Source of the DNA: Melioribacteraceae bacterium
GTDB lineage: Bacteria; Bacteroidota; Ignavibacteria; Ignavibacteriales; Melioribacteraceae
Reading direction: 5' to 3'
NCBI GenBank assembly: GCA_027030245.1
Contig: JALVFE010000030.1
Span: forward strand, 1 to 64,000
Length of the DNA: 64,000 bases
In this document: piece by piece, positions 5,003 through 59,514 of the stretch
How positions within the stretch are numbered: position 1 is the first letter of the stretch
How the letters are laid out: each line of letters starts with the position of its first letter
Translations under genes and position numbers: made by a program
Notes under the pieces: generated by a model
Database searches by the model: none
What the model was told of the DNA's origin: nothing
Seen by the model: the letters and a program-made list of their open reading frames with translations, nothing else

Positions 5003-5500
5003 TTTGGAGATTGATATTTGGGATTTGTTATTTGGAATTTCTTGGTTGTCATTCCGTCCGCCTTCGGCGGATTGAAGAGAACCTGTCATCCCGTCCGCCT
5101 ACGGCGGATTGTTTCGGAATCTAAAATGAACTCTCTATTTTGTACAACAAACGCCATCGGCGTGAAATATTTATAGAACACACATTACAACACAAAAACA
5201 AAACTCCATTGGAGTGACATATTTTGTCATTTGAAATTAGTCATTTGTCAATGGTCATTGGTCAATAGTAATTTGTGATTTGTTGTTTGGGATTTGCAAT
5301 TTGTTATTTGTTAGCCACTAATTTACAAATAAAAAATAATTTTAGGAACGCAAGGTTTGCGTCCCCTACATCTTACGTTTCACGTCTCTACGTTTCACGT
5401 CTCACGTTTTACGTCTTTCGTCGCACGTCTCTACGTTTCACGTCTCTACGTTTTACGTCTCACGTTTTACGTCTCACGTTTTACGTCTCACGCCTGGGAT
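5003..5500 (+). repeat. Intergenic block, left copy of direct repeat flanking the ATPase gene
   Basis: The gap 4926-5575 holds no supportable gene. From 5003 it runs: a 'GATTTGG/TTGTCATT' low-complexity tract, a composite palindromic element, more 'GTCATTGGTCAATAG' tract, then 'TTAGCCACTAATTTACAAATAAAAAATAATT', a CGCAAGGTTTGCG palindrome, and a tract of ACGTTTCACGTCTCTACG repeats (5373-5493). The same order reappears at 6966-7470 in the same orientation, so the ATPase gene between them is bracketed by diverged direct repeats. Confidence 0.75.
5084..5219 (+). repeat. Composite palindromic element, copy B
   Basis: This is a full-length copy of the ~140-bp element described at 195-333, in plus orientation. 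It has the hairpin GTCCGCC-TAC-GGCGGAT, the GTTTCGGAATCTAAAATGAAC segment, the hairpin CGCC-AT-CGGCG, the ATATTTATAGAAC segment and the hairpin ACTCC-ATT-GGAGT followed by GACA. Confidence 0.72.
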
Positions 5501-6965: not shown

Positions 6966-7470
6966 TTTGGAGATTGGTATTTGGGATTTGTTATTTGGAA
7001 TTTCTTGGTTGTCATCTCGAAATAAGACTTGTCATTCCGTCGGCCTTCGGCGAATTGAAGAGAACCTGTCATTCCGAATTTATTTCGGAATCTAAAAAGA
7101 ACCCTTAGAACAATAAGATGCTGAAACAAGTTCAGCATGACAATTAATTGGAACAGCATGAAGAAAAGAGGAACCTGTCATTCCGAACTTGTTTCGGAAT
7201 CTAAAATGAACTCTCTATTTTGTACAACAAACGCCATCGGCGTGACATATTTTGTCATTGGGAATTAGTTATTTGTCAATGGTCATTGGGAATTGGTCTA
7301 TGATCATTTGGGATTTGTTGTTTGGGATTTGTAATTTGTTATTTGTTAGCCACTAATTCGCAAATAAAAAATAATTGCCGGGACGCAAAATTTGCGTCCC
7401 CTACATCTTACGTTTCACGTCTCTACGTTTCACGTCTCACGTTTTACGTATTACGTTTCACGTCTGTAAT
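6966..7470 (+). repeat. Intergenic block, right copy of direct repeat flanking the ATPase gene
   Basis: This matches 5003-5500 in order and orientation: 'TTTGGAGATTGGTATTTGGG', palindromes, 'ACAACAAACGCCATCGGCGTGA', a GTCATTGG tract, 'TTAGCCACTAATTCGCAAAT', a CGCAAAATTTGCG palindrome, then ACGTTTCACGTCTC tracts (7408-7466). It differs in the middle: extra GATGCTGAA...TTCAGCATGACA palindromes are inserted, and the third hairpin of the composite element is deleted. The whole gap 6830-7520 carries no supportable gene. Confidence 0.75.
7176..7247 (+). repeat. Composite palindromic element, truncated copy C
   Basis: This copy keeps the TGTCATTCCG start, the GTTTCGGAATCTAAAATGAAC segment and the CGCC-AT-CGGCG hairpin, then stops at TGACA. 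The TATTTATAGAAC segment and the ACTCC/GGAGT hairpin of the other copies are missing. Confidence 0.65.
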
Positions 7471-26210: not shown

Positions 26211-26548
26211 GGATGCCCGTGGCAGAACCCTCGGAACACAAAATCGGGTAATGGGACACATCGATTTTCAATGTAGAATTCGGATAATATTTTTGATATG
26301 GAAAAGCGGAAGGGGAGGGATTCTCCCGGAGGGATGCCTTTGGCAGAACCCTCGGAACACAAAATCGGGTAATGGGACACATCGATTTTCAATGTAGAAT
26401 TCGGATAATATTTTTGATATGGAAAAGCGGAAGGGGAGGGATTCTCCCGGAGGGATGCCTTTGGCAGAACCCTCGGAACACAAAATCGGGTAATGGGACA
26501 CATCGATTTTCAATGTAGAATTCAGATAATGTTTTTGATATGGAAGAG
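26211..26548. repeat. 121-bp tandem array built from the tRNA-Ser 3' end
   Basis: Units start at 26226, 26347 and 26468; the first two are identical and the third, next to the tRNA, has a few substitutions. Each contains the last ~36 bases of the adjacent tRNA-Ser (acceptor 3' strand and T arm), plus ~65 bases of unrelated sequence. In the first two full junctions the T loop is split by a 22-base insert made of two mini-hairpins, TCCCGGAGGGA and TGCCTTTGGCA. A partial start (TGCC-CGT-GGCA) precedes unit one. Short open frames in the array are not genes. Confidence 0.85.
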
Positions 26549-26636
26549 CGGAAGGGGAGGGATTCGAACCCTCGGAACACATAATGTGTTCAACGGTTTT
26601 CGAGACCGCCCCGTTCAACCACTCCGGCACCCTTCC
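26549..26636 (-). tRNA. tRNA-Ser (anticodon CGA)
   Basis: The minus-strand sequence has acceptor stem GGAAGGG/CCCTTCC, discriminator G, an anticodon stem-loop CGGTCTCGAAAACCG with anticodon CGA, a long class II variable arm (AACACATTATGTGTT) and T arm GAGGG-TTCGAAT-CCCTC. No CCA is encoded. It reads the UCG serine codon. A tandem array of its 3' portion lies directly downstream. Confidence 0.93.
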
Positions 26637-46760: not shown

Positions 46761-47944
46761 ACATGAAGAAACTCGGATTAGCTCATTTGTTACTCTTGTT
46801 GTGGATTGCGGTATTGATATTCCGGTATGAGTTGTTTTATCATATTTCGCAGTTGGTTTTGTCCGTAGTTTCCGGGGAAATTAATATTTTAAAAATAAAT
46901 CCGAGGTTTTACGATTATCTCGTTTCATTTTTACTTTTTTTCGTACTACCGGTTGCGGTATGGAAAATACCTGCTCTTAAAAATATTTTTCAAAAAAGAT
47001 TAACCTGGCTAAATGCTTTTCTAAGTTTATTCTTTGTGATAATTTTATTTGCACCGCTGCTTTCCACATCGAATCCGGATTTGCATTATAATATTAAAAA
47101 ATGTAAACTTTTACCACCATTCTCTGAAGTTTTTATTGAAAGTTCAGTGGGAGAAAATGCACCGGCAGATTCCGATCTGTATAATTATTTTAAAAGTGAA
47201 ATTATCAATAGAGGAATTTCAAAAGGAGCTGAATATTATAACGACGGTAATGCAAACGAAGGGCGTAGAGTGATTTTTATTTTCGGAACGGATGAATACG
47301 CTAGGGATGTTTATTCCAGAATCCTCTACGGAACGCGGTTTGCTTTTCTTTTGGGGTTAGGCTCGGTAACTTTATCCTTTTTGATCGCGTTTGTACTCGG
47401 ATTGGCTGCCGGATTCGGAGGTAAATTCTGGGATAATTTAATAAATAGATTTACGGAAATATTTTTATCATTTCCGTTTTTATTTTTGATAATTGTGTTC
47501 TTGGCATTTTTCGGAAATTCTTTCTGGGTTGTTGTTCTTGTTCTCGGACTTTCGGGCTGGATGGGATTATTCAAAATTATCAGAGGGGAAATATTACGTT
47601 TGAAATCAAAGGATTTTATTCTCTCGGCAAAAATGTTAGGAATTCCGGAATATAAAATTCTCTTAAAAGAAATTTTGCCGATCATTCTTTCACCGCTTTT
47701 GGTAAACCTTGTTTTGCAATTCGGTAATGTTATAATGGCTGAATCGGCGTTAAGTTTTTTGGGATTCGGTGCCGGTGAGGAATATTTTTCGTGGGGTTCT
47801 ATGATTAACTCAGGACAATATTATCTTTCTACCGCTTGGTGGTTAAGCTTTTTCCCGAGTTTGTTTTTAGCAGTTTCACTATTAACGATGAACCGATTAG
47901 GAAATACTTTAGAGAAAGTTTTCAATCCGGAATCTACGAAATGA
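46757..47944 (+). CDS. Peptide ABC transporter permease (OppC/DppC-like)
   Basis: The 395-residue permease is longer than usual (~300) because the N-terminus carries two to three extra helices before the core. The core has 'FGTDEYARDVYSRILYGTRFAFLLGLGSV' and the EAA loop 'LSAKMLGIPEYKILLKEILPIILSPL'. It pairs with the preceding permease. Its stop overlaps the start of the kinase-ATPase gene (ATGATTAATG), so importer and kinase translation are coupled, which is unusual for a housekeeping transporter. Confidence 0.9.
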   Translation: MNMKKLGLAHLLLLLWIAVLIFRYELFYHISQLVLSVVSGEINILKINPRFYDYLVSFLLFFVLPVAVWKIPALKNIFQKRLTWLNAFLSLFFVIILFAPLLSTSNPDLHYNIKKCKLLPPFSEVFIESSVGENAPADSDLYNYFKSEIINRGISKGAEYYNDGNANEGRRVIFIFGTDEYARDVYSRILYGTRFAFLLGLGSVTLSFLIAFVLGLAAGFGGKFWDNLINRFTEIFLSFPFLFLIIVFLAFFGNSFWVVVLVLGLSGWMGLFKIIRGEILRLKSKDFILSAKMLGIPEYKILLKEILPIILSPLLVNLVLQFGNVIMAESALSFLGFGAGEEYFSWGSMINSGQYYLSTAWWLSFFPSLFLAVSLLTMNRLGNTLEKVFNPESTK

Positions 47945-50900
47945 TTAATGAAAGATACAGAGTTATTAAATTGCTCGGCGAAGGGAGGAGCAGAGTATTT
48001 TTATGCGAAGATACATTGCATGGAAGTATAAATGTAGTAATGAAGGTTTTGGATGTTGGTTCACCGGATTATGAGGTTAAAAATTTCCGTGAAGAATACA
48101 TAAAACTTAGAAAATTTAATAATAAACATATTGTAAAAGGGTTCGAATACGGAACGGTTGTTACGACCGGAAACAAAGAAATTATAGAAGAAATTGAGAA
48201 AGGCTCAAAATTTTTTACACTGGAATTTATAAATGGTAGAAACTTACGCGAATTTTATAATACTCACAGTGAAAAAAAACTCCGTGAAATTACAAAACAG
48301 ATTTGCGAAACGCTTTTCTACATTCACGAATCCAATTACATCTATTTCGATCTTAAACCGGAAAATTTATTGGTCGGTAATAGCGAAAAACATTTTTATA
48401 TTAAGTTAATCGATTTTGGTTTTGCCGAACAGGTCTTAAAAAAATCAGAAGAATGGAAAAAAGGAACCGCACAATATATTGCACCGGAATTGTTGTTGGG
48501 AAAGGAATATGATAAACGTGTGGATTTTTATTCGCTCGGTGTTCTTCTTTATTTTCTGATGTTCGGCAAATTTCCGTTTGGAAGCGGGGAAGAAATAGAA
48601 ATCTACCGCAGAAAAATTTCCGAGGAAATTACTTTCGGGAAACACAATTATTCGGTTGAATTTGAAAACATTGTCCGGAAATTGTTAAGAAAAAATCCTG
48701 CGGAAAGATATAGCAATGCATTTGAAATATTATCCGCGTTAAAAATAAAAAATAAGCAATCTTTCTTAACCGAGTGGAAACCCGTAAAAAGTTTTCAAAT
48801 TACGGATACCACATTAGAGATTACCGATTTTATTTTCCGGAACGATACGAATCAAATATTAAATTTAATTGGCAGAAATAATGCGGGCAAAACCGCTCTT
48901 GCCGAAGAAATATATCAGAATTTCCCCGATGTGTTTTGGGTTACGAAAAACGATATACCTAGCGATAAATCCGCTTGGGAGATAATCCTTAGAAAAATTG
49001 TTTACTCAGCTGGAATTTTTGGTAAGTTGCCGGAAAATATTAAAAATGATGCTTTAAATTTACTGGCTGGGAACAGTGAAAATATTCAACAACAAATAAC
49101 CCATATTTTCAATTATTTAACTTCCGAATTACCGTTTGTTTTGTTTCTTGATGATTTTGATTTATACGATCTTTTCACACGGAATTTGATTGAAAATTCA
49201 TTTACTCTTTTCGTTGTTAATAAAGCAAAATTAATAATACTTACCAAAACCGAGATAAATTATTCCTCCACTAACGAAAAAATTATTAAAAAGATTTTCT
49301 TAAAACCTTTTAATGAGTATGAAACCGGTCAGTTTATAGTCAAAACCTTTTCTTCTTTATTCCCGCTTAAAAAGTTCTCGAAACTGGCAACCGAACTTAC
49401 GGATTTATATCCGGGAAATATTTACGATATGCTTGAGGGTTTATTCCTAGGAAAACTATTATTGTACGAAAAAGGTAAAATTAAACTTTCCCGGAATGAT
49501 TTTGAGATCAAAAAGCTGGATACAGCAGCAAGGAAAAATTTATTCTCTAAGCTTCAAACGTTTTCGGCAAAAAAGAAACGATTACTCGATATAATTTCTG
49601 TGTTCCCAAACGGAATCGAACACGAAATCTTATTCGGAATTTGGGACGGCGGTAATAATTTGCAAAGTATTATTGATGAATTGGTACAAAACGGTTTTTT
49701 AAAATTTTACGATAACAAAATCAGATTTACCTCTAAGTTTTTAAGAGAAAGTGTATACAGCCAAATTGAAAATAAGCACATGCTACATTTATTGGTTGCC
49801 GAAAATTTGGAAAAATCGGTACCGAACTATCCACGGGTTGATTTGGCGCGTCAATATGAATTAGGCGGGAATAAGGAAAAGGTTTTTGAATTGATTTATC
49901 AGGAATTGGAAAGCATTCGTCCCAATAATTTGTTTGTTTATGAAAAGTATCTTTTGGAATATTTACTTAGGATTTCTCCGGAAGCCCGGCAAAAAATAAA
50001 TGTAAAAGTAGAATTAAGTAAAACACTCTATCAACTGGGGGAATTTGAAAAATCATTAACTCTAATTGATGAGATAATTGATAACATAAACGGAATTGAG
50101 CGGAAAAAATTAAATATACTAAAAGCGGATTGCTATGTTGCTATAGGGAAAATTAAGAAGGCGGTAAAAATTTATTCCGATATTTTAGAAGAAAATCCGA
50201 GCCGGGAAATTTATGAGGAAGTTTTAATAAAGCTTGCTACGGCGGAATCTTATATGGATTTATTTTACCAGTCGAAAGCAAAATGCATTGAATTGATCAA
50301 TCGTCCGGAAGTATCGGAATTAATAAAAGCCCAAGCCTACAATTTGATGGGAATACTAGAGCATAATTTGGGTAGTGAAATAAAATTGGTGGAAGATTAT
50401 TTTAGACGTGCCCATGAAATATATACTAAATTGAAAATGCCACAGAAATTGGCTAAAACTTCAATAAATCTTGGAATAATTAACAATATAAAAGAAAATT
50501 ATACTGAGGCACAAAAATGGTGGGATGAAGCTCTTAGATTAGCCCAAAAAACGGGTAGCTTGGAGGAAGAAATTACTATTAGAACGAATTATGTTATTTT
50601 TTATATTCATCGACAACAATTCGATAAAGCAGAAAAATATAGTTTGAGAACTTTAAGATTAGCAGAAGGTTTAAATAAAAAATATGAAGCTGCATTAATT
50701 TATCTCAATTTAAGTGAAGTGGAAATTATTATTTGTGAATACGAAAAAGCTCTAGAACATCTTCTCAAGAGCAAAGATATTTTTGAATACTTGGGAAGCT
50801 ACACGGAATTAAGTGAAGTTTATTTTTTATTGGCGTATTTACATTATCTAATTGAATACAGGGAGGAATTTGTTAGGTATTCAAAAGTATTTTTAAAAAC

Positions 50901-51495
50901 TATTAAATCTTCGAGAAGCGCTAACAGTGATTTTTTAGAAAAATTAATAAATTTATTTGCAAAAACATTAAATAACGAACAAATAAGTTCTGAACATTTA
51001 CTTGAAATTTTTAATTCTTGCGGTATAAAAGAAGATAAAATTTTTGAATATTATTACTATCTGTATGCGCTAAATCAATTATATGTATCCGGAAATTTTG
51101 ATTTATTAAATTCGATTTTTGAGACAGATGATTTTAAAAAATTAGAGAGTGAAAATATCTTAATCAGTGCGCAAAAAAATTATTTATATGGAAAAATTTT
51201 TCAAAAAAATAACGATAAAATTAATTCGCTTTTAAATTTTGAAGAGGCTTTTGAGAAATTAAATAATGTTGAAATAACCGAGTTAACATGGAAAACTTCA
51301 ATTGAATTAGCGGAAATTTATTTTGAGCGCGGGAATATAAACAAAGCAAGTGAATATTTGGAAATTACCGAAAATATTTTGCAAATTATAAGTTCGAAAT
51401 TTAAGCACTTTGAATTAAAGAACGCTTATTTTCAAAATAAGGAACGGGCGGAGACATTACAAAAGATTGAGAGATGGCAAATATTAATACATTAA
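47941..51495 (+). CDS. PknK-like Ser/Thr kinase with ATPase and TPR domains
   Basis: I start at the ATG at 47941, which overlaps the permease stop, giving 1184 residues; an upstream in-frame start would run through the permease gene. A eukaryotic-type kinase domain (about 5-270) has the loop GEGRSR at 13-18, Lys35, the catalytic Asp137 in 'YFDLKPEN' (His-Arg of HRD replaced by Tyr-Phe) and Asp158 of DFG. An ATPase follows with Walker A GRNNAGKT at 311-318 and Asp404-Asp405 as Walker B. From about 650 to 1180 there are TPR repeats. This kinase-ATPase-TPR order matches PknK/MalT-like signal integrators. It overlaps the sigma-54 activator gene by 22 bp, its probable target or partner. Confidence 0.88.
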   Translation: MINERYRVIKLLGEGRSRVFLCEDTLHGSINVVMKVLDVGSPDYEVKNFREEYIKLRKFNNKHIVKGFEYGTVVTTGNKEIIEEIEKGSKFFTLEFINGRNLREFYNTHSEKKLREITKQICETLFYIHESNYIYFDLKPENLLVGNSEKHFYIKLIDFGFAEQVLKKSEEWKKGTAQYIAPELLLGKEYDKRVDFYSLGVLLYFLMFGKFPFGSGEEIEIYRRKISEEITFGKHNYSVEFENIVRKLLRKNPAERYSNAFEILSALKIKNKQSFLTEWKPVKSFQITDTTLEITDFIFRNDTNQILNLIGRNNAGKTALAEEIYQNFPDVFWVTKNDIPSDKSAWEIILRKIVYSAGIFGKLPENIKNDALNLLAGNSENIQQQITHIFNYLTSELPFVLFLDDFDLYDLFTRNLIENSFTLFVVNKAKLIILTKTEINYSSTNEKIIKKIFLKPFNEYETGQFIVKTFSSLFPLKKFSKLATELTDLYPGNIYDMLEGLFLGKLLLYEKGKIKLSRNDFEIKKLDTAARKNLFSKLQTFSAKKKRLLDIISVFPNGIEHEILFGIWDGGNNLQSIIDELVQNGFLKFYDNKIRFTSKFLRESVYSQIENKHMLHLLVAENLEKSVPNYPRVDLARQYELGGNKEKVFELIYQELESIRPNNLFVYEKYLLEYLLRISPEARQKINVKVELSKTLYQLGEFEKSLTLIDEIIDNINGIERKKLNILKADCYVAIGKIKKAVKIYSDILEENPSREIYEEVLIKLATAESYMDLFYQSKAKCIELINRPEVSELIKAQAYNLMGILEHNLGSEIKLVEDYFRRAHEIYTKLKMPQKLAKTSINLGIINNIKENYTEAQKWWDEALRLAQKTGSLEEEITIRTNYVIFYIHRQQFDKAEKYSLRTLRLAEGLNKKYEAALIYLNLSEVEIIICEYEKALEHLLKSKDIFEYLGSYTELSEVYFLLAYLHYLIEYREEFVRYSKVFLKTIKSSRSANSDFLEKLINLFAKTLNNEQISSEHLLEIFNSCGIKEDKIFEYYYYLYALNQLYVSGNFDLLNSIFETDDFKKLESENILISAQKNYLYGKIFQKNNDKINSLLNFEEAFEKLNNVEITELTWKTSIELAEIYFERGNINKASEYLEITENILQIISSKFKHFELKNAYFQNKERAETLQKIERWQILIH

Positions 51496-52850
51496 CCAAA
51501 CCTCCGATTATATTTAAATACTTTAAGGCGAATGAAAATTCTGATTTGATTATTAATGCTATAAATCAAATCGACTATAGTGCGATTAAAATCGAATTTT
51601 GTGACGAATTCCACCCAACAACAGGTATAGGCAATGTATTTGTTTTCGATATTAATGAATTATCCGATCAATATATCGATGTTGCCTTTAAAGTAAAATC
51701 TGTTTTAGACACCGATCCAATTATGGTTGTATACTCGCAAGACCCTATTTTGATAAGTACATTATCGAGAATGGGACTTACGGAAATTTTCATTATCCCC
51801 AGTGAATTGCAAAAGTTGAAGTTTTATTTGAAAACCCTAACGGATAATCTTTCCGTTAAGTTGCTTGCAAGAAAAATTGATAAAGAGAAAATAGAAACAT
51901 CGGATTTCGATGAGATTATAGGCAAATCCAAAGCTATAAAAAAAATTCTTACTCAAGCTAAAAGCTTGGCTATAAATTATAAAGTTGATTTACTTATTTT
52001 AGGTGAAACCGGAACCGGGAAGGGACTTCTTGCAAGAAGCATTCATAAAAACAGTCCTATAGCTGATGCTCCATTTGTCCCCATTAATTGCTCGGCCATC
52101 CCCGAAAACTTGCTTGAATCGGAACTTTTTGGTTATGAACCGGGTGCATTCACGGATGCCAAAAAGAAAAAACTAGGTTTATTTGAATTTGCAGAGAATG
52201 GAACAATATTTTTGGACGAAATTGGTGATTTAAGTCCGAAACTGCAAGTAAAAATTCTTGACGTACTTGACCGTAAAGTAATACGCAGACTCGGTGGAGT
52301 TAAAGATATCCCGATTAAAGCGAGAATAATTTCAGCCACAAACAAAGATTTACTAACGTTGGTTGAAAAAAATGAGTTTCGAAGGGACTTGTATCATAGA
52401 TTGGAAGTTGCAACAATCGAATTGCCGCCTTTAAGAAAAAGGGAGCGGGACGTTTTAATTTTGGCCGAACATTTCATTAAAGAAGCGGTCAAAAAATTTG
52501 AGAAACCCCAGATGAAGATGAGCAAAGAAATGGAAGTTTTTTTGTTAAAATACGAATGGCCGGGAAACGTAAGGGAATTAAGAAACGCTATTGAAAGGGC
52601 GGTATTATTATCGGAAGGTTCCACGCTTCAAGTAAATGACTTGTTTAATCTTTTAGGGAACAAAACAATAGATTCGATTTTGGATAATAGTAGTATTTTA
52701 AATCTTCAGTTTAATGATACCGGAATTCCGTTAGAAGAAATTAACAAGTTGATAGTCAGGCAAGTTCTCAGAAGATTTCAAGGCAACAAGACTAAAACCG
52801 CAAAATATCTCCACATTTCAAGACCCCGTTTGGATAGAATTTTGAAGTAA
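51474..52850 (+). CDS. Sigma-54-dependent transcriptional activator (NtrC family)
   Basis: The 458-residue protein has an atypical N-terminal receiver-like domain (1-125) lacking the acidic pair expected of phospho-receivers. The AAA+ domain (about 140-375) has Walker A from Gly177 (GETGTGKG), the sigma-54 contact loop as GAFTDA (224-229, usual form GAFTGA), Walker B 'GTIFLDEIGDL' and arginine-finger region 'FRRDLYHRLEV'. A Fis-type helix-turn-helix is at the C-terminus ('NKTKTAKYLHISRPRLDRIL'). Its gene overlaps that of the Ser/Thr kinase, so control may come from that kinase rather than a histidine kinase. A -24/-12 promoter lies 177 bp after its stop. Confidence 0.93.
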   Translation: MANINTLTKPPIIFKYFKANENSDLIINAINQIDYSAIKIEFCDEFHPTTGIGNVFVFDINELSDQYIDVAFKVKSVLDTDPIMVVYSQDPILISTLSRMGLTEIFIIPSELQKLKFYLKTLTDNLSVKLLARKIDKEKIETSDFDEIIGKSKAIKKILTQAKSLAINYKVDLLILGETGTGKGLLARSIHKNSPIADAPFVPINCSAIPENLLESELFGYEPGAFTDAKKKKLGLFEFAENGTIFLDEIGDLSPKLQVKILDVLDRKVIRRLGGVKDIPIKARIISATNKDLLTLVEKNEFRRDLYHRLEVATIELPPLRKRERDVLILAEHFIKEAVKKFEKPQMKMSKEMEVFLLKYEWPGNVRELRNAIERAVLLSEGSTLQVNDLFNLLGNKTIDSILDNSSILNLQFNDTGIPLEEINKLIVRQVLRRFQGNKTKTAKYLHISRPRLDRILK

Positions 52851-53026: not shown

Positions 53027-53043
53027 TGGAATAATTATTGCAT
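53027..53043 (+). promoter_or_regulatory. Sigma-54 (-24/-12) promoter
   Basis: TGGAATAATTATTGCAT has GG and GC separated by exactly 10 bases, as sigma-54 requires. The -12 element TTGCAT is perfect; the -24 element keeps TGG and A. Transcription would start near 53053, giving a ~38-base leader before the ATG at 53091. It lies immediately after a sigma-54 activator gene. Confidence 0.72.
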
Positions 53044-53090: not shown

Positions 53091-53762
53091 ATGAGAAAAT
53101 CAATTCTAACCTTATTCGTTTTTGTTCTTTCGGCATTTGTAGTTTTTGCGCAAGTTCCACAAAATGTTGAAACTGCTTCGAGATATAGAAGTAATGTGAA
53201 AAAAACGACTTATAAAACGGTGGCTAATAATAGCATAATGAGCATAGACATTGTTCAAAAAAATATTAACGAGAAGAAATCAAACGCACAACTTGAAGAC
53301 TTGGGAACCCGTTACGGTTGGTCAAGATCAAACGCACAACTTGAAGACTTGGGGACCCGATACGGTTGGTCAAGATCAAACGCACAACTTGAAGACTTGG
53401 GAACCCGTTACGGTTGGTCAAGATCAAACGCACAACTTGAAGACTTGGGAACCCGTTACGGTTGGTCAAGATCAAACGCACAGCTTGAAGACTTGGGAAC
53501 CCGTTACGGTTGGTCAAGATCAAACGCACAGCTTGAAGACTTGGGAACCCGTTACGGTTGGTCAAGATCAAACGCACAACTTGAAGACTTGGGGACCCGA
53601 TACGGTTGGTCAAGATCAAACGCACAGCTTGAAGACTTGGGAACCCGTTACGGTTGGTCAAGATCAAATGCACAGCTTGAAGACTTGGGCACCCGTTACG
53701 GCTGGTCAAGATCGAATGCACAACTCGAAGATTTAGGTACTCGATACGGTTGGACTAGATAG
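53091..53762 (+). CDS. Secreted protein of ten 16-residue repeats
   Basis: The 223-residue protein has a signal peptide (about 1-20, ending VVFAQ) and a short Lys/Asn-rich linker (21-63). Ten tandem copies of SNAQLEDLGTRYGWSR follow, the last ending GWTR and then the stop. At DNA level the 48-bp unit is almost invariant, with silent changes (GGAACCCGTTAC or GGGGACCCGATAC) and the last two copies most diverged. AGAGGG precedes the ATG. It is the apparent target of the sigma-54 promoter at 53027. Possible roles are a precursor for repeated peptides or a repeat-built surface fibre or beta-solenoid. I recognise no family. Confidence 0.85.
   Translation: MRKSILTLFVFVLSAFVVFAQVPQNVETASRYRSNVKKTTYKTVANNSIMSIDIVQKNINEKKSNAQLEDLGTRYGWSRSNAQLEDLGTRYGWSRSNAQLEDLGTRYGWSRSNAQLEDLGTRYGWSRSNAQLEDLGTRYGWSRSNAQLEDLGTRYGWSRSNAQLEDLGTRYGWSRSNAQLEDLGTRYGWSRSNAQLEDLGTRYGWSRSNAQLEDLGTRYGWTR
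53280..53759 (+). repeat. Ten tandem 48-bp coding repeats
   Basis: Period exactly 48 bp, in frame, all within the secreted repeat protein. Copies 2 and 7 share the GGGGACCCGATAC variant, and copies 5, 6, 8 and 9 share CACAGCTT, which suggests recent block duplication. Because 48 is a multiple of three, other frames stay open through the repeat but are not genes. Confidence 0.97.
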
Positions 53763-53788: not shown

Positions 53789-53820
53789 AAACCTCCTTCA
53801 GCATTATGCTGAGGAGGTTT
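53789..53820 (+). terminator. Hairpin between repeat gene and protease gene
   Basis: AAACCTCC(T)TCAGCAT pairs with ATGCTGAGGAGGTTT, one base bulged. It is followed by ATAAATTTT rather than a T-run, so it may only attenuate. Partial read-through from the sigma-54 promoter into the protease gene is possible. Confidence 0.7.
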
Positions 53821-53848
53821 ATAAATTTTAAAAGGATTTAAAATAGTT

Positions 53849-56803
53849 GTGTATAAAAAATATAAAAATAAAATAAGCACAAATAAAATAGTTGCTTTAT
53901 TATCACTGATTATGCTTGTATTTAATATACAAGTATACGGTGAATGGTTGCAAAAAGAGAGTAAGAATTTTATTATTATCTACCGGCCAAACCACGAGCA
54001 TTTAGTAGATCATATACTTCTTTCCGCTGAAAGGTCATTAGATAAGTTAAGTAATCTCTTTCATTATCATCCCACGGGAAAAATAGTAATAAACACTAAT
54101 GATTTTGCCGATTACGGGTATGGAAGAGCTACGACCGTTCCGGAAAACTTTATCTCTATAGTTATCGAACCGTTTGAAAATTTATATGAAAATTTTCCTT
54201 ATACGGAAAGAATTCAATGGCTTTTAAATCATGAAATAGTTCATATAATAGTAAACGATCAAGCATCAAAAGCCGAAGCGTTTAGCCGCTCGATTTTTTC
54301 CAAAGTTCCTCCAGAACGTAAACATCCGATTTCTACTTTTTTCAGTCTGCTGACAAATTTTAGCCGTTACACTCCGAGATGGCAGCAAGAGGGGATTGCC
54401 GTTTTTATGGAAACATGGTTAAGCGGAGGATTCGGAAGAATTTTAGGGAATTTTGATGAAATGTATTTCCGTACCTTAACTTTGGAAGAGCAAAAAATTC
54501 CGGATATCGTTGAGCTTGATGCAATTTTCACCCATAATTCGTTTTTGTTAGAAAATTTGTTTTATCTGTACGGTGCAAGATTTTCAGCTTATCTTGCCCT
54601 TCAATACGGTCCGGGAAAATTAATACAATGGTATAAAATTGACGAATCGGATTTTTATACAGATTTCGAAGAGAAATTTGAAAACGTTTTTGAAATACCG
54701 TTCGAAACGGCATGGAAAAACTTTGCTTCATTTGAAAAGTCGTTTCAGGAAACAAACATTAAAAAATTACGGCAATTTCCAATCACACCGGTTGAGAAAA
54801 TAACTGCTGAAAATTTCGGATGGATAACAAAACCGTTATACGACAAAAAATCCCGGAAAATTTATTTCGGATTCCACAGATCTCATCAACTGGCGCAGAT
54901 AGCCGAGCTTGATTTGAATTCCGGTAAATCTAAAATTCTGCGAGATATTCCGGCGCCGAGTATGTTAAGTGTTTCTTCAACCGCTTACGATGAAAAACGC
55001 GGTGTATTATTTTTCACTTCAAATAATAACCGGCTTTACAGGGATATTTGGGCTCTGGATTTGGGAAATAATACATCAATGGAAATTTTTCACAATCAAA
55101 GAATCGGTGATTTAACATTTTCAAAAGCCACAGATGAATTGTGGGGAATAAGGCATAATAACGGTGAGAATGCTCTGGTGGTTACCAAATATCCTTTTGA
55201 AAAAATTCAAACACTTTCGGTATTAAATGCCGGTACGGAGCTCTCGGGCTTGAGTATAAGTCCCGATGGTAATATGCTGGCTTGCGTTTTACATGAGACC
55301 GACGGAACACAGTCGATAATTTTGTTGAATACAAATGAAGTCAGAAAAACCGGTAAACTCAAATTTTTCAGAGTAACTTCTGTCGGAACACCGGAAAATC
55401 CCTCGTGGGACGAAACCGGAAAGCAACTGTTTTGGAATGCGTATGCTAACGGTGTTTCCAATATATTTAAGTATAATTTAGACTCTAACAAAATAACAAT
55501 TTTAAGCAATACATTAACGGGTTTATTCAGACCTATTTATATGAATAAAGATTCTATTCTTGTATTCGAATTTAGCACAAAAGGTTTTAGACCCGCAATA
55601 ATCAAAAACAAATCGACCCGATTCGTTCCTGCAATCAATTATCTGGGACAAAAAGTTTTTGATAAAAACACATATCTTGCCAAATGGAATGTGGATAGCC
55701 CCGAAAAAGAAAAACCTGTAAACGAAAAGACGGAAGAATATTCGGCTCTTAGTCATTTGGATATATTGTCGTTTATTCCAATGATCAGCGGATTCCAATC
55801 GCAAAAGGTTTTGGGTTTTTATACGCATATTACCGATCCGTTAATTTATCACGATATTCAGATAGAAGCAGGGTATTCACCTTTCAACGAAAATCCCATC
55901 GGGCCCAAGTTTCATTTCAGACTTAGCTATAACTATAAACAAAAGTTAAGTATAGGTCTGGAGCATAATGCACCGGATTTTTATGATTTGTTCAATACGC
56001 GAAAGAGGGGAATGATCGGTAGCAAACTCCGCGTTGGTTATAAGCATTATTGGATTTATGACGTACCTTATAAATTAATCCAAAAAACTCAATTCGATTT
56101 ATATCATGGAGTAGAATATATAAACGATAATTTAACTAGAGTATCCGAACCCGATTTTGCAGTGGCACAAACAATTATAACATCCAAATATTTAAGGCGC
56201 AGCATCGGAAGCTCCGATTATGAAAAGGGTGATATTATTACTTTTACACTGAGAGGTTTTGCTTCGGATCCGAATAACCCTCAATATTCCGGACAAACAT
56301 ATTTGGAATGGGAACATCTGGAACCGGTTCTGGCAAAACATAATACTTTCAGATTCAAAATCGGAATAGGTTATCATCATGATAATCCAAATTTGATTCA
56401 ATCCCGCTTTTATTTCGGTGGATTTGGAAACAGAACTCTTGAAAACGTAAATGCCAAGCAATACAGAAAAGTATTCCGTTTTCCGGGAATTCCTATTTAT
56501 AGTTTGGCGGGCGACCGTTTCATTAAAATTATGTTTGAAAATAATTTCCCACCCGTAAGGTTTCCTAATATTTCGTTCCTTCAGCAATATCTTAGTCACA
56601 TCGATTTCTCGGTTTATTCGCATAGTTTGCTTGTCCGTTCAAATTGGGCTAAAAAATGGATTAACATTGGTGCCCAACTGAATTTTACATTTAAACATTG
56701 GTTTAATTTAGAATCAACTTTGTCATTCGGTGCGGCAAAAGCATGGAATGAAAATGATTCCTATTTCGAATGGTTTGTTTCTTATAAATTATTGAAAAGT
56801 TAA
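53849..56803 (+). CDS. Outer-membrane HExxH metalloprotease-like protein with propeller and beta-barrel
   Basis: The 984-residue protein starts at GTG after AAAAGGA and has an N-terminal signal segment (about 13-32). A peptidase MA-like gluzincin domain (about 35-310) has HEIVH at 128-132 and the likely third zinc ligand Glu181 in 'WQQEGIAVFMETW'. A PD40/TolB-like propeller follows (about 320-600, 'ELSGLSISPDGNMLACVLHE'). The last ~320 residues alternate like an outer-membrane beta-barrel ('GYHHDNPNLIQSRFYFGGFGNRTLEN'). An active protease domain facing the periplasm or surface is inferred. It lies 86 bp after the 16-residue repeat gene, which makes that protein a candidate substrate. Confidence 0.8.
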   Translation: MYKKYKNKISTNKIVALLSLIMLVFNIQVYGEWLQKESKNFIIIYRPNHEHLVDHILLSAERSLDKLSNLFHYHPTGKIVINTNDFADYGYGRATTVPENFISIVIEPFENLYENFPYTERIQWLLNHEIVHIIVNDQASKAEAFSRSIFSKVPPERKHPISTFFSLLTNFSRYTPRWQQEGIAVFMETWLSGGFGRILGNFDEMYFRTLTLEEQKIPDIVELDAIFTHNSFLLENLFYLYGARFSAYLALQYGPGKLIQWYKIDESDFYTDFEEKFENVFEIPFETAWKNFASFEKSFQETNIKKLRQFPITPVEKITAENFGWITKPLYDKKSRKIYFGFHRSHQLAQIAELDLNSGKSKILRDIPAPSMLSVSSTAYDEKRGVLFFTSNNNRLYRDIWALDLGNNTSMEIFHNQRIGDLTFSKATDELWGIRHNNGENALVVTKYPFEKIQTLSVLNAGTELSGLSISPDGNMLACVLHETDGTQSIILLNTNEVRKTGKLKFFRVTSVGTPENPSWDETGKQLFWNAYANGVSNIFKYNLDSNKITILSNTLTGLFRPIYMNKDSILVFEFSTKGFRPAIIKNKSTRFVPAINYLGQKVFDKNTYLAKWNVDSPEKEKPVNEKTEEYSALSHLDILSFIPMISGFQSQKVLGFYTHITDPLIYHDIQIEAGYSPFNENPIGPKFHFRLSYNYKQKLSIGLEHNAPDFYDLFNTRKRGMIGSKLRVGYKHYWIYDVPYKLIQKTQFDLYHGVEYINDNLTRVSEPDFAVAQTIITSKYLRRSIGSSDYEKGDIITFTLRGFASDPNNPQYSGQTYLEWEHLEPVLAKHNTFRFKIGIGYHHDNPNLIQSRFYFGGFGNRTLENVNAKQYRKVFRFPGIPIYSLAGDRFIKIMFENNFPPVRFPNISFLQQYLSHIDFSVYSHSLLVRSNWAKKWINIGAQLNFTFKHWFNLESTLSFGAAKAWNENDSYFEWFVSYKLLKS

Positions 56804-56957: not shown

Positions 56958-58205
56958 ATGGAAACCAAAATCTTACGGAATCTAGATAAAATAATAAACG
57001 AATATCTTGGAGAAAGCATAAACAGCTTCTTACCCGAACAAAATATTAAAGTTTTGGAAAATAATTTTTCCCGGGTGTTTACCGGAGAAGGAAATCATGA
57101 AAAAATAAAAGAAGATCCGGTTTTTATTTCGGCGCAATTTCGTTTATTGGTTGATATTTTGATTACGTTGGCAAAAAAATCTTTGTCGGGTAGCAAATAT
57201 TGGGATTTCCTTTTGGTATTGGGCGATGAACTTAGAAAAATGGGTAATTACCAAATTGCGGAAAACATATTTAACTATTTCGTAAGTGAATTGGAGAATA
57301 CGAATCAATACCCCGATTTTGTGGCTAATGCTTATTACTTGTTGGGAGTAATTTATTACGATCAAGCCGTTTGGGATAAAAGTCTGGAATATCTTGAATC
57401 GGCAAAAAGAATTTTCGGGAAAGAAAAATATAATTCCGGAATTTCAACATGTACAAACTTGATGGGCATTATATACGGTGAAAAAGGCGAGATTGAAAAA
57501 GCGAAGAATTATTTTTATCAAAGTCTGGATATAATTGACGAGGAAAAAGAAAAATATTTGTATGCAAAAATTCATTTTAACCTCGGAACTCTTGAAATGA
57601 TTAAAGAAGAACTTGACAACGCATTTGCTCAGTTGAACAGGGCTACTACAATTTACGAACAATTCGGAGATCAGGAATCTTTGGCCCGAAGTAACCATAA
57701 CTTCGGAATTATTAATAAACTTAAAAGCAACTATAACATTGCATTAAATTATTACGATAATGCTATTATGATAGCAGTTAATTCCGAAAATTTACAAATA
57801 TTGAATATTGCATTTGCAGAAAAAGCTCACGTTTTGACTGAGATAAACGATCTTAACCTTTCCGCCTCATATGTAGAGAGGTCAATGCAAATCAGCAATA
57901 AAATTAACGATGTATTGACAATTGCCGATTTATATAAAATTCAAGGTATTATCGAAAGAAAAAAATCGAGATTTTCAAAAGCGGAAAAATATTTAAGTAC
58001 AAGTCTTCGTATTAACAAAGAGAAAGAAAGTAAATTAAACTTGGCAGAAACATTCTTTGAAGCGGGACTTTTATACCTTAATTGGAAAAAAATTGACGAG
58101 GCAAAGTATCATTTCAACGAAGCTTTAAAACTCAAAAAAGAAATCGGCGCCTCGCAATCGGTTGAAAAAATAAATGAAATTCTCGGTAAAATAAATCCTA
58201 ACTAA
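56958..58205 (+). CDS. TPR repeat protein
   Basis: The 415-residue protein without a signal peptide has an N-terminal helical region (1-75). About nine TPR-like motifs follow ('NAYYLLGVIYYDQAVWDKSLEYLESAKRIF', 'KIHFNLGTLEMIKEELDNAFAQLNRATTIYE', 'ARSNHNFGIINKLKSNYNIALNYYDNAIMI'). It resembles the TPR half of the kinase-ATPase protein upstream. It is 19 bp before the GAF histidine kinase gene, so the two form an operon and probably a signalling unit. Cytoplasmic TPR proteins can bind peptides or partner proteins; here the ligand is unknown. Confidence 0.85.
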   Translation: METKILRNLDKIINEYLGESINSFLPEQNIKVLENNFSRVFTGEGNHEKIKEDPVFISAQFRLLVDILITLAKKSLSGSKYWDFLLVLGDELRKMGNYQIAENIFNYFVSELENTNQYPDFVANAYYLLGVIYYDQAVWDKSLEYLESAKRIFGKEKYNSGISTCTNLMGIIYGEKGEIEKAKNYFYQSLDIIDEEKEKYLYAKIHFNLGTLEMIKEELDNAFAQLNRATTIYEQFGDQESLARSNHNFGIINKLKSNYNIALNYYDNAIMIAVNSENLQILNIAFAEKAHVLTEINDLNLSASYVERSMQISNKINDVLTIADLYKIQGIIERKKSRFSKAEKYLSTSLRINKEKESKLNLAETFFEAGLLYLNWKKIDEAKYHFNEALKLKKEIGASQSVEKINEILGKINPN

Positions 58206-58224: not shown

Positions 58225-59514
58225 ATGAAACTTTCCGAATTGCGAAAAAATATTTCTTCAAAAGGAATCAATTCCGGAGCGGAAGTTAACCATAAACTTC
58301 AACATTTGGAGTTAATACTTGATTTATTGAAGAAAATTAACAGTTCACTTATACTTGACGAAGTTCTCCGGTCGGTCTTAAAATATTCCATTAAGTTAAC
58401 GAATTCAGAAAGAGGATTTATTGTACTTGAGAATGAAAACAAAGAACTGAAATACAGATTAGGACTCGATGCCAACGGAAGGGAATTACCCGAACATTTT
58501 TTCAACATCAGCACTACAGTAGTTGAGGATGTTTTCCTTAGCGGTCGCTCCAGATTTATTGAAGGTGCGCAAAATGATGTGGATAATCATCCGAGTAAAA
58601 GTATTTTGCGACTTGCACTGCAGACAATATTTTGTTCTCCGTTAATAGCCGATGATAAGAAAATCGGGGTGATTTATGTTGATAGTAAGTCTTTGAACAA
58701 TGTAAACTTAAAAGAAGTTACCGCAATGTTCGAGATTCTTGCCAGCCAAGCGGCAATAGCAATACGTAACGCAAAATTGCATGAGGAATTAAAAAAAGCC
58801 AAAATAAAAGCAGAGGAATCGGATAAACTAAAGTCGGCTTTCCTTTCGCAAATCTCGCACGAAGTTAGAACCCCTTTGAATACAATATTCAACTATAATT
58901 CCATTTTGAAAGAAATGTTTTATTCCAAGGTTGAAGATGAATACAAATTTTTATTTTCCAGTATGCAAAGCGCCGGCGAACGAATAATAAGAACACTCGA
59001 TAACGTTGTGAATATGTCTTTGCTCGATTCCGGGGAGTTCAGCGTTACCAAAACATCTGTTAATTTGGATTCTTTATTAAATAAACTGATAAAAGAATTT
59101 GAAGTTTTTGCCGAAAGTAAAAATTTGGAAATTAAATATGAGAAGAAAGTTAAACACTGCATAGTTTTAGCGGATGAATATACAATTTCCATCTTGTTCC
59201 AAAACTTGATTGATAACGCAATTAAGTTTACAGACAAAGGTTTTATCAGTATAGTCATTAAGAAAAACAGAGTGTCTCAACTGGTAGTAGAAGTAGAAGA
59301 TACGGGAAAAGGAATATCAAAAGAATATTTGGATAATTTATTCGATGCGTTTTCACAAGAAGAAATCGGTTATACTCGCCGGTACGAAGGCGCCGGATTA
59401 GGTTTGTCCATAGTTAATGAATTTGCAAAATTAAATGATTGCAAAATCAATGTTAAGAGTAAAGTCGGGAAAGGAAGTAAATTCAGCGTAATATTTGAGA
59501 AGAAACTTACTTAA
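58225..59514 (+). CDS. GAF-domain sensor histidine kinase
   Basis: The 429-residue soluble kinase has a GAF domain (about 30-185, 'SERGFIVLENENKELKYRLGLD...FCSPLIADDKKIGVIYVDS'). A short coiled coil is followed by HisKA with phospho-acceptor His212 in 'FLSQISHEVRTPLNT' and HATPase_c with 'NLIDNAIKFT', 'DTGKGIS' and 'GAGLGLSIVNEFAKLN'. There is no transmembrane segment. It is coupled to the TPR gene. No response regulator is adjacent, so its target is unclear; the sigma-54 activator nearby lacks a canonical receiver. Confidence 0.9.
   Translation: MKLSELRKNISSKGINSGAEVNHKLQHLELILDLLKKINSSLILDEVLRSVLKYSIKLTNSERGFIVLENENKELKYRLGLDANGRELPEHFFNISTTVVEDVFLSGRSRFIEGAQNDVDNHPSKSILRLALQTIFCSPLIADDKKIGVIYVDSKSLNNVNLKEVTAMFEILASQAAIAIRNAKLHEELKKAKIKAEESDKLKSAFLSQISHEVRTPLNTIFNYNSILKEMFYSKVEDEYKFLFSSMQSAGERIIRTLDNVVNMSLLDSGEFSVTKTSVNLDSLLNKLIKEFEVFAESKNLEIKYEKKVKHCIVLADEYTISILFQNLIDNAIKFTDKGFISIVIKKNRVSQLVVEVEDTGKGISKEYLDNLFDAFSQEEIGYTRRYEGAGLGLSIVNEFAKLNDCKINVKSKVGKGSKFSVIFEKKLT

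Follow-up and report, generated by a model that had tools for sequence, protein, structure and literature searches.

A tandem-repeat protein and a neighbouring predicted metalloprotease-propeller-barrel protein point to an undescribed two-part envelope system in Ignavibacteria

Curli and Fap fibres are exported through their own pores, and the system described here resembles them in that a single locus encodes both an exported protein of variable repeat number and a dedicated outer-membrane protein, and in that Ser and Gln are conserved in the repeat unit. However, no sequence relation to curli or Fap was found, and the partner here is a predicted fusion of protease, propeller and barrel. Another likeness is to the regulated proteolysis of ECF sigma/anti-sigma systems, in that sister loci bring together an ECF sigma gene, a putative anti-sigma gene, a membrane-anchored array, a protease and, in the one sister locus scanned, a PrsW-family protease (1.4e-20). 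In contrast, the clade of the present locus has sigma-54 features and an unanchored array, and proteolysis in the sister loci is something that we infer. The propeller of the partner aligns with TolB of the Tol-Pal system (crystal 1crz, Z 21.9) but is part of a larger protein that also contains a protease and a barrel. Finally, an exported protein and a barrel protein encoded side by side recall two-partner secretion (TpsA/TpsB), as does the strand layout of the barrel (see below); however, the Pfam matches of the two proteins include neither the TPS domain of such a cargo nor the POTRA domain of such an exporter, and the locus was not assigned to that system. The repeat protein and its partner point to a two-part envelope system that has not been described.

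The window (the whole stretch of DNA that was analysed, 64,000 nucleotides of a Melioribacteraceae genome) carries the repeat gene and the features around it that are collected in Table 1.

Table 1. Features of the repeat locus in the window
Feature	Position	Strand	Remarks
Ser/Thr kinase with long C-terminal part, likely regulatory	47836..51495	+	PknB-type, NCBIfam 1.8e-41, below model cut-off
Sigma-54 activator (AAA+, Fis-type HTH), likely regulator	51474..52850	+	Pfam Sigma54_activat 3.4e-63, HTH_8 4e-06
Sigma-54 (-24/-12) type promoter element TGGAATAATTATTGCA	53027..53042	+	TGG-N8-TTGC, 64 bp before ATG
Repeat-protein ORF	53091-53762	+	223 aa, ATG start
Predicted signal peptide, 20 aa, FA/Q	53091..53150	+	Read from sequence; hydrophobic leaders alike in family
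Motif NVETASRYR, predicted mature N-terminus	53163..53189	+	Conserved in homologue alignments
Ten 48-bp / 16-aa units, up to stop codon	53280..53759	+	
Inverted repeat, terminator-like, between repeat gene and partner gene	53789..53821	+	Read by eye
Partner gene (984 aa): exported protein of metalloprotease (HEIVH ... E181), TolB-like propeller and C-terminal barrel	53849..56803	+	Predicted
TPR protein	56958..58205	+	TPR_12 7.8e-29; equivalent place in relative L005
GAF histidine kinase	58225..59514	+	HATPase_c 2.2e-24, GAF_2 9.6e-13, HisKA 7.5e-11

The first-pass annotation had described a secreted protein of ten near-identical 16-residue units encoded by 48-bp repeats, and this array is borne out both by reading of the ORF and by Tandem Repeats Finder (53279-53760, period 48, 10.0 copies, 94% matches, 0% indels), whose score of 817 for it is the highest in the window. 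The array fills residues 64-223 without a gap and consists of nine SNAQLEDLGTRYGWSR units and a final unit ending GWTR, with no residue between that unit and the stop codon. Comparison of the units pair by pair gives 162 differences, 153 of them silent and 9 replacement (pN/pS 0.018). Elsewhere in the window, Tandem Repeats Finder reports a 121-bp unit in 2.9 copies with 97% matches (26211-26565), and at 5223-5492 and 7306-7465 it lists arrays whose units are 7 or 14 bp long, TACGTTTCACGTCTC among them.

The protein is probably exported, in line with the earlier claim that it is secreted, given the hydrophobic leader that precedes a conserved motif in 24 aligned homologues. This motif, whose commonest form is NVExAxR[YF][RQ], lies directly behind the leader; its columns N25, V26 and R31 are invariant in an alignment of nine homologues, and in the 24 R31 is invariant, with V26 and A29 conserved in at least 90%. 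The 'RYRSN' of the linker, read earlier as an echo of the repeat junction, belongs in part to this motif, but its trailing 'SN' is not conserved. An inverted repeat similar to the terminator-like one of the window occurs at the equivalent place in L005.

A profile search of 164 genomes of the order, with homologues counted at E below 1e-5, found the repeat protein in 46; at E up to 0.01 there were 51, and the five weak matches (G039, G040, G043, G047, G078) were dropped. A single-query search matched 9 of 79 genomes of the window's family, while in a phylum sample 13 of 395 genomes matched, none of them outside the class, and in a class sample 28 of 391 did so. Given its length, its perfect period and the recurrence of its unit design in these 46 genomes, chance is excluded as the source of the array. 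The closest named relative is in a Melioribacteraceae MAG of the window genome's genus (JALSTB010000113.1, or G008), the array of which has 15 units, 14 of them SDAQLEDLGSRYGWLR. It should be noted that contigs of G007, G036, G044, G051, G052 and other genomes end within an array, so that copy numbers and the presence of the family are probably undercounted; because most of the genomes are fragmented, often at the arrays, absence is weak evidence.

In 20 arrays read to both ends (a set that leaves out G035 and the masked-base arrays of G096 and G121), the number of units ranges from 4 to 16, consecutive units are joined directly and no sequence comes after the final one. Ten further 3' ends include six at a unit end and four, in G035, G044, G051 and G151, inside a unit; the array stops exactly at a unit end in 26 of the 30 cases with the 3' end read. 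When one unit per species was compared for 31 species, leaving out the 15-residue unit of G033, which lacks the Q, positions Q4, L8 and G9 were identical in all. Position 14 is aromatic in all 31 and position 12 in 30, variability is highest at position 15, and in 23 species the unit carries no net charge. Ser 1 is found in 28 species and Asn 2 is frequent; position 16 is R or K in 28 and T or Q in three. Units differ among species and are nearly uniform within arrays, and across the 20 fully read arrays pN/pS lies between 0 and 0.43, variation being mostly silent. The low pN/pS and the uniform arrays of species-specific units indicate that the unit is kept by selection and changes in concert between species. 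Thus, the arrays evolve by concerted change under purifying selection, and both the strong constraint and the homogenisation that the first-pass annotation had proposed hold across the family.

The repeat had been assigned to no known family, and it matches none described: searches of Pfam, NCBIfam and PDB sequences returned repeat-summing artefacts, matches far below cut-off or nothing, and neither Pfam nor PDB sequences gave a match to curli/Fap-type proteins. The sole Pfam model above its cut-off, HTH_Tnp_4 (PF13613, 33.3 bits vs 27), matched 21 residues with no stretch passing by itself, and it was rejected because the score was reached only by summing repeats and because the protein appears to be exported. 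Six stretches in viral contigs matched the pattern, none of them a relative; consequently, a phage origin is without support here. In the literature, the passages seen under Ignavibacteria-type names combined with tandem repeats, sigma-54 or anti-sigma contain no description of such a protein, and the one text match to the unit motifs, in an excerpt on a marine lectin with LGSRYGW at its N-terminus, was taken as chance. Stacking into a beta-solenoid or fibre, as had been suggested, finds no support in the AlphaFold2 model of the mature window protein, in which weak helices and zero strands are predicted, although a model of such low confidence (mean pLDDT 40.8, pTM 0.14) excludes nothing. Hydrophobic moments lean toward helix at unit positions 1-12 and toward strand at 10-16, a weak hint.

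The pairing of the array with its partner is the main result, and a firm one; the first-pass annotation mentions neither the partner gene nor the promoter element nor the family. In the window the partner gene is directly downstream of the repeat gene, and a partner homologue adjoins the array in 28 of the 32 loci with sequence available beyond the array. These comprise 8/8 loci in the window's family, 14/18 in a second family (counting G095, with only the first 40 partner residues before its contig end, and G147, with part), 4/4 array tails at contig ends and 2/2 in a third family. The four exceptions (G091, G096, G099, G100) come from one genus (g40); partner remnants lie beside the array of G099, full partner copies are found elsewhere in G096 and G099, and no partner was found in the genome of G100. 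Throughout the order the partner (E up to 1e-30) is present in 53 of 164 genomes and in 45 of the 46 repeat-bearing ones, with G091 having only a 112-aa remnant. Eight genomes of the order have the partner and no repeat: in G041, G102 and G116 the contig stops about 180 bases or less before the partner ORF, in G092 the partner is preceded by another gene rather than an array, G030, G130 and G161 carry the sister form, and G038 has a fragment.

The same association is seen in the class sample, in which partners were split by score, 1386 bits or more being counted as high. The repeat protein is present in 26 of the 27 genomes with a high-scoring partner (the miss is G041) vs none of the 37 with only lower-scoring or partial, that is sister-clade, partners. 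G119 has both forms of the partner, G091 a partner fragment with the repeat, and G602 a repeat fragment with no partner detected. Furthermore, the pair is kept despite differing upstream genes in G033, G044, G051, G052, G212 and G390, where the two ends of the array are on different contigs in G044, G051, G052 and G212. In G036 (L042 1-330), close to a contig start, the beginning of the partner gene is distributed over two reading frames. A distant partner paralogue, about 22% identical (G000:C9:74983-76647, with similar loci L070-L075), is preceded by a secretion-tail protein of about 1000 aa (Por_Secre_tail in L072, the one scanned) and followed by a protein of about 290-330 aa; no repeat gene was seen beside these paralogues in six loci.

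AlphaFold2 on 22 partner sequences gave a pLDDT of 83.6 and a pTM of 0.83. In the N-terminal domain H128, E129, H132 and E181 are invariant in the 22 aligned sequences, and HExxH is present in all 39 partner ORFs picked by the barrel motif. A downstream Glu was found in 37 of these, 53-54 residues on in 33 by pattern and in four by reading, two being unread. (L041, L111, L128 and L130 lie outside the 39; L041 and L111 are in the 22-row alignment, and L130 was read.) With HExxH and a downstream Glu ligand, the partner is predicted to be an MA-clan (gluzincin) metalloprotease; Pfam Peptidase_MA_2 matched 1 of 22 partners, at E 0.054, and Cu_amine_oxidN1 weakly matched four. Many partners of f2 (L104, L107, L110, L111 and others) are more than 200 residues longer at the N-terminus. 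Behind the metalloprotease domain, residues from about 311 to 591 are modelled as a TolB-type propeller. VIA aligned 240 residues of it with TolB at an rmsd of 2.8, Z being still 18.9 at rank 50, and the best Foldseek match of the partner was also TolB (2.0e-11); other propellers trail at Z about 20 and below, and the blade number is taken from TolB. Since the VIA matches cover mainly model residues 190-591, the protease and barrel folds were barely tested by it.

From residue 638 on, 16 barrel strands were counted, and the long loop that separates strands 11 and 12 contains a conserved FGGFGN segment, a layout known from Omp85 proteins. The layout hints at Omp85, but the sequence tests did not establish a relation: none of 28 barrels matched an Omp85 model of Pfam at E up to 1, and hhalign against four of the five Omp85 proteins of the window genome gave E 0.019 and a probability of 2.5% over the segment before strand 12, with a TonB control set that was weak (three rows of only 5-9 residues). 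Because of the barrel, the partner is presumed to reside in the outer membrane. In L039, L067 and L069 a lipoprotein-like gene of about 200 aa lies behind the partner, its product ending in PHFSRFGWFR, PHFTRFGWSV or PHFSRWGVGND; the first two resemble the LGSRFGWVR of the unit, possibly by chance.

The neighbourhood of the pair suggests control by sigma-54. A 16-mer identical to the promoter element of the window sits 68 bp before the ATG in L005, and in 23 of 30 loci the array is preceded by an activator homologue. The full TGG-N8-TTGC is found in 11 of 30 upstream regions of the family (420 bases), all 11 with an upstream activator, and the remaining 12 activator-bearing loci have no full match. 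In a set of 29 regions of 220 bases, which excludes G096, 10 matched against a shuffle mean of 0.34 and maximum of 4, and four other spacings gave 0. A -24/-12 promoter together with an activator is thus predicted for the window gene and 10 others of the 30. A large kinase of similar kind precedes the activator in L032, L035 and L039, and L005, L039 and several f2 loci have look-alikes of the GAF histidine kinase close to the pair.

The lower-scoring partners have repeat proteins of their own. When the regions upstream of 24 of them were inspected, 23 were seen to encode a protein in which a GTIG-type motif comes after a hydrophobic segment; for L191, the exception, a search of six frames did not find the motif. 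This protein is periodic beyond the 95% shuffle level in 18 of 19 sister loci, strongly in 12 (at least 0.29 of positions identical at the period) and weakly in six (0.15-0.20), the weak cases counting for little because a few other ORFs also passed 95%; in a separate set of sister proteins, three of five pass the 99% level. The periods vary, among them 9 (KDAAFQELL), 12 (SAPLDMQASLLK) and 16 (KYVPAENQKYILEAAM), and the array comes after one predicted transmembrane segment in all 18 sister proteins printed. The N-terminal motifs of the two clades show no significant homology (hhalign E 0.024; in hmmsearch the scores were interspersed with those of controls).

Of 19 sister loci, 17 gave a match to an ECF sigma gene. 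The gene that follows is called a putative anti-sigma factor solely because of its position; no Pfam model of an anti-sigma family matched in nine sister-clade proteins scanned. In 8 of 18 sister proteins this gene and the array share one reading frame (seven joined ORFs by phmmer match, L183 by likeness to L182). Each of the eight contains an internal ATG, which in seven is preceded by a good ribosome-binding site (GGAGG or GAGGG), so that two separate proteins are possible. Because of this ECF sigma setting, we interpret the arrays as clients or inputs of the partner and not as a single, special structural protein.

Taken together, these observations have led to a model in which the array is a multivalent client, either substrate or ligand, of an envelope protease, here under sigma-54 control, a reading that we prefer while holding it at somewhat less than an even chance. 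The repeat protein would be exported, with NVExAxRYR as a docking motif and the array as a series of equivalent 16-residue sites. The partner would also be exported, its barrel in the outer membrane and its TolB-like propeller, a fold of peptide-binding type, beside the metalloprotease, and propeller and protease would make contact with the array, hold it and cut it site by site. Copy number would set avidity or the number of cuts, and cutting would report on or process something at the envelope. In the window's clade, sigma-54 and the neighbouring activator would switch production on; in the sister clade, arrays of other sequence would have an inner-membrane anchor and be encoded next to an ECF sigma and a putative anti-sigma factor, as one would predict for arrays that are proteolysed to feed a signalling cascade. 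The client model is the most economical because the shared neighbour has a peptide-binding propeller and protease residues, because the sites are equivalent and because arrays occur at ECF loci, although a propeller and a protease, as predicted here, also occur together in enzymes of many substrates.

The main rival is that the repeat protein is exported through the partner barrel, trimmed by the protease and assembled outside the cell into a surface fibre or functional-amyloid-like matrix. A variable count of equivalent repeats, export, an adjacent barrel protein and the Gln, Ser and frequent Asn of the unit would all suit a fibre, as would sigma-54 control, which has often been linked with the bacterial exterior (PMC3162934). 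However, neither strands nor a solenoid are predicted, albeit at low confidence, and no solved amyloid matches in sequence; we regard this explanation as unlikely, if deserving of serious attention. The near-identity of the units and the protease next door could also belong to a polyprotein precursor from which a 16-residue signal or antimicrobial peptide is freed. Endoproteolytic release at the unit junction had been proposed at the outset, and the predicted metalloprotease lends it indirect support; the basic unit ends and the arrays that finish on a complete unit speak for a precursor. Cleavage itself is conjectural, though, and the three species with T or Q at the unit end and the four arrays that stop inside a unit argue against such a precursor, which appears improbable; nor was any transporter or modifying enzyme noticed that the loci share.

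If, instead, the array remained uncut, it might span or fill the periplasm as a tether or ruler with a TolA-like link to the propeller. The likeness of that propeller to TolB and the single transmembrane segment before the sister arrays would fit, but in the window's clade the leader of the repeat protein looks cleavable and the array comprises only 4-16 units, and the catalytic residues of the partner are kept, so that a tether is quite improbable. Least probable of all is that two co-regulated envelope genes are neighbours with no direct relation. The evidence is, after all, synteny in draft genomes, and the g40 genomes have the two genes apart; however, the presence of the repeat protein tracks the partner clade across the class sample, and in the sister clade a different repeat protein occupies the corresponding place.

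The client model can be extended to a new class of trans-envelope sensor, although we consider this doubtful. One protease-propeller-barrel lineage would read exchangeable repeat 'tapes' of 16-, 15-, 12- or 9-residue units, wholly different between lineages and nearly uniform per array, which would be cut to feed sigma-54 or ECF sigma circuits. What had been an orphan repeat gene becomes one of the two genes of a conserved system that occurs in several families of a single bacterial class, and the pairing supplies a named partner, catalytic residues and a promoter. If the array is indeed a client of the protease, this would be a new bacterial use of tandem repeats, as multivalent envelope substrates, and it would explain why the unit is constant within a species and changes between species.
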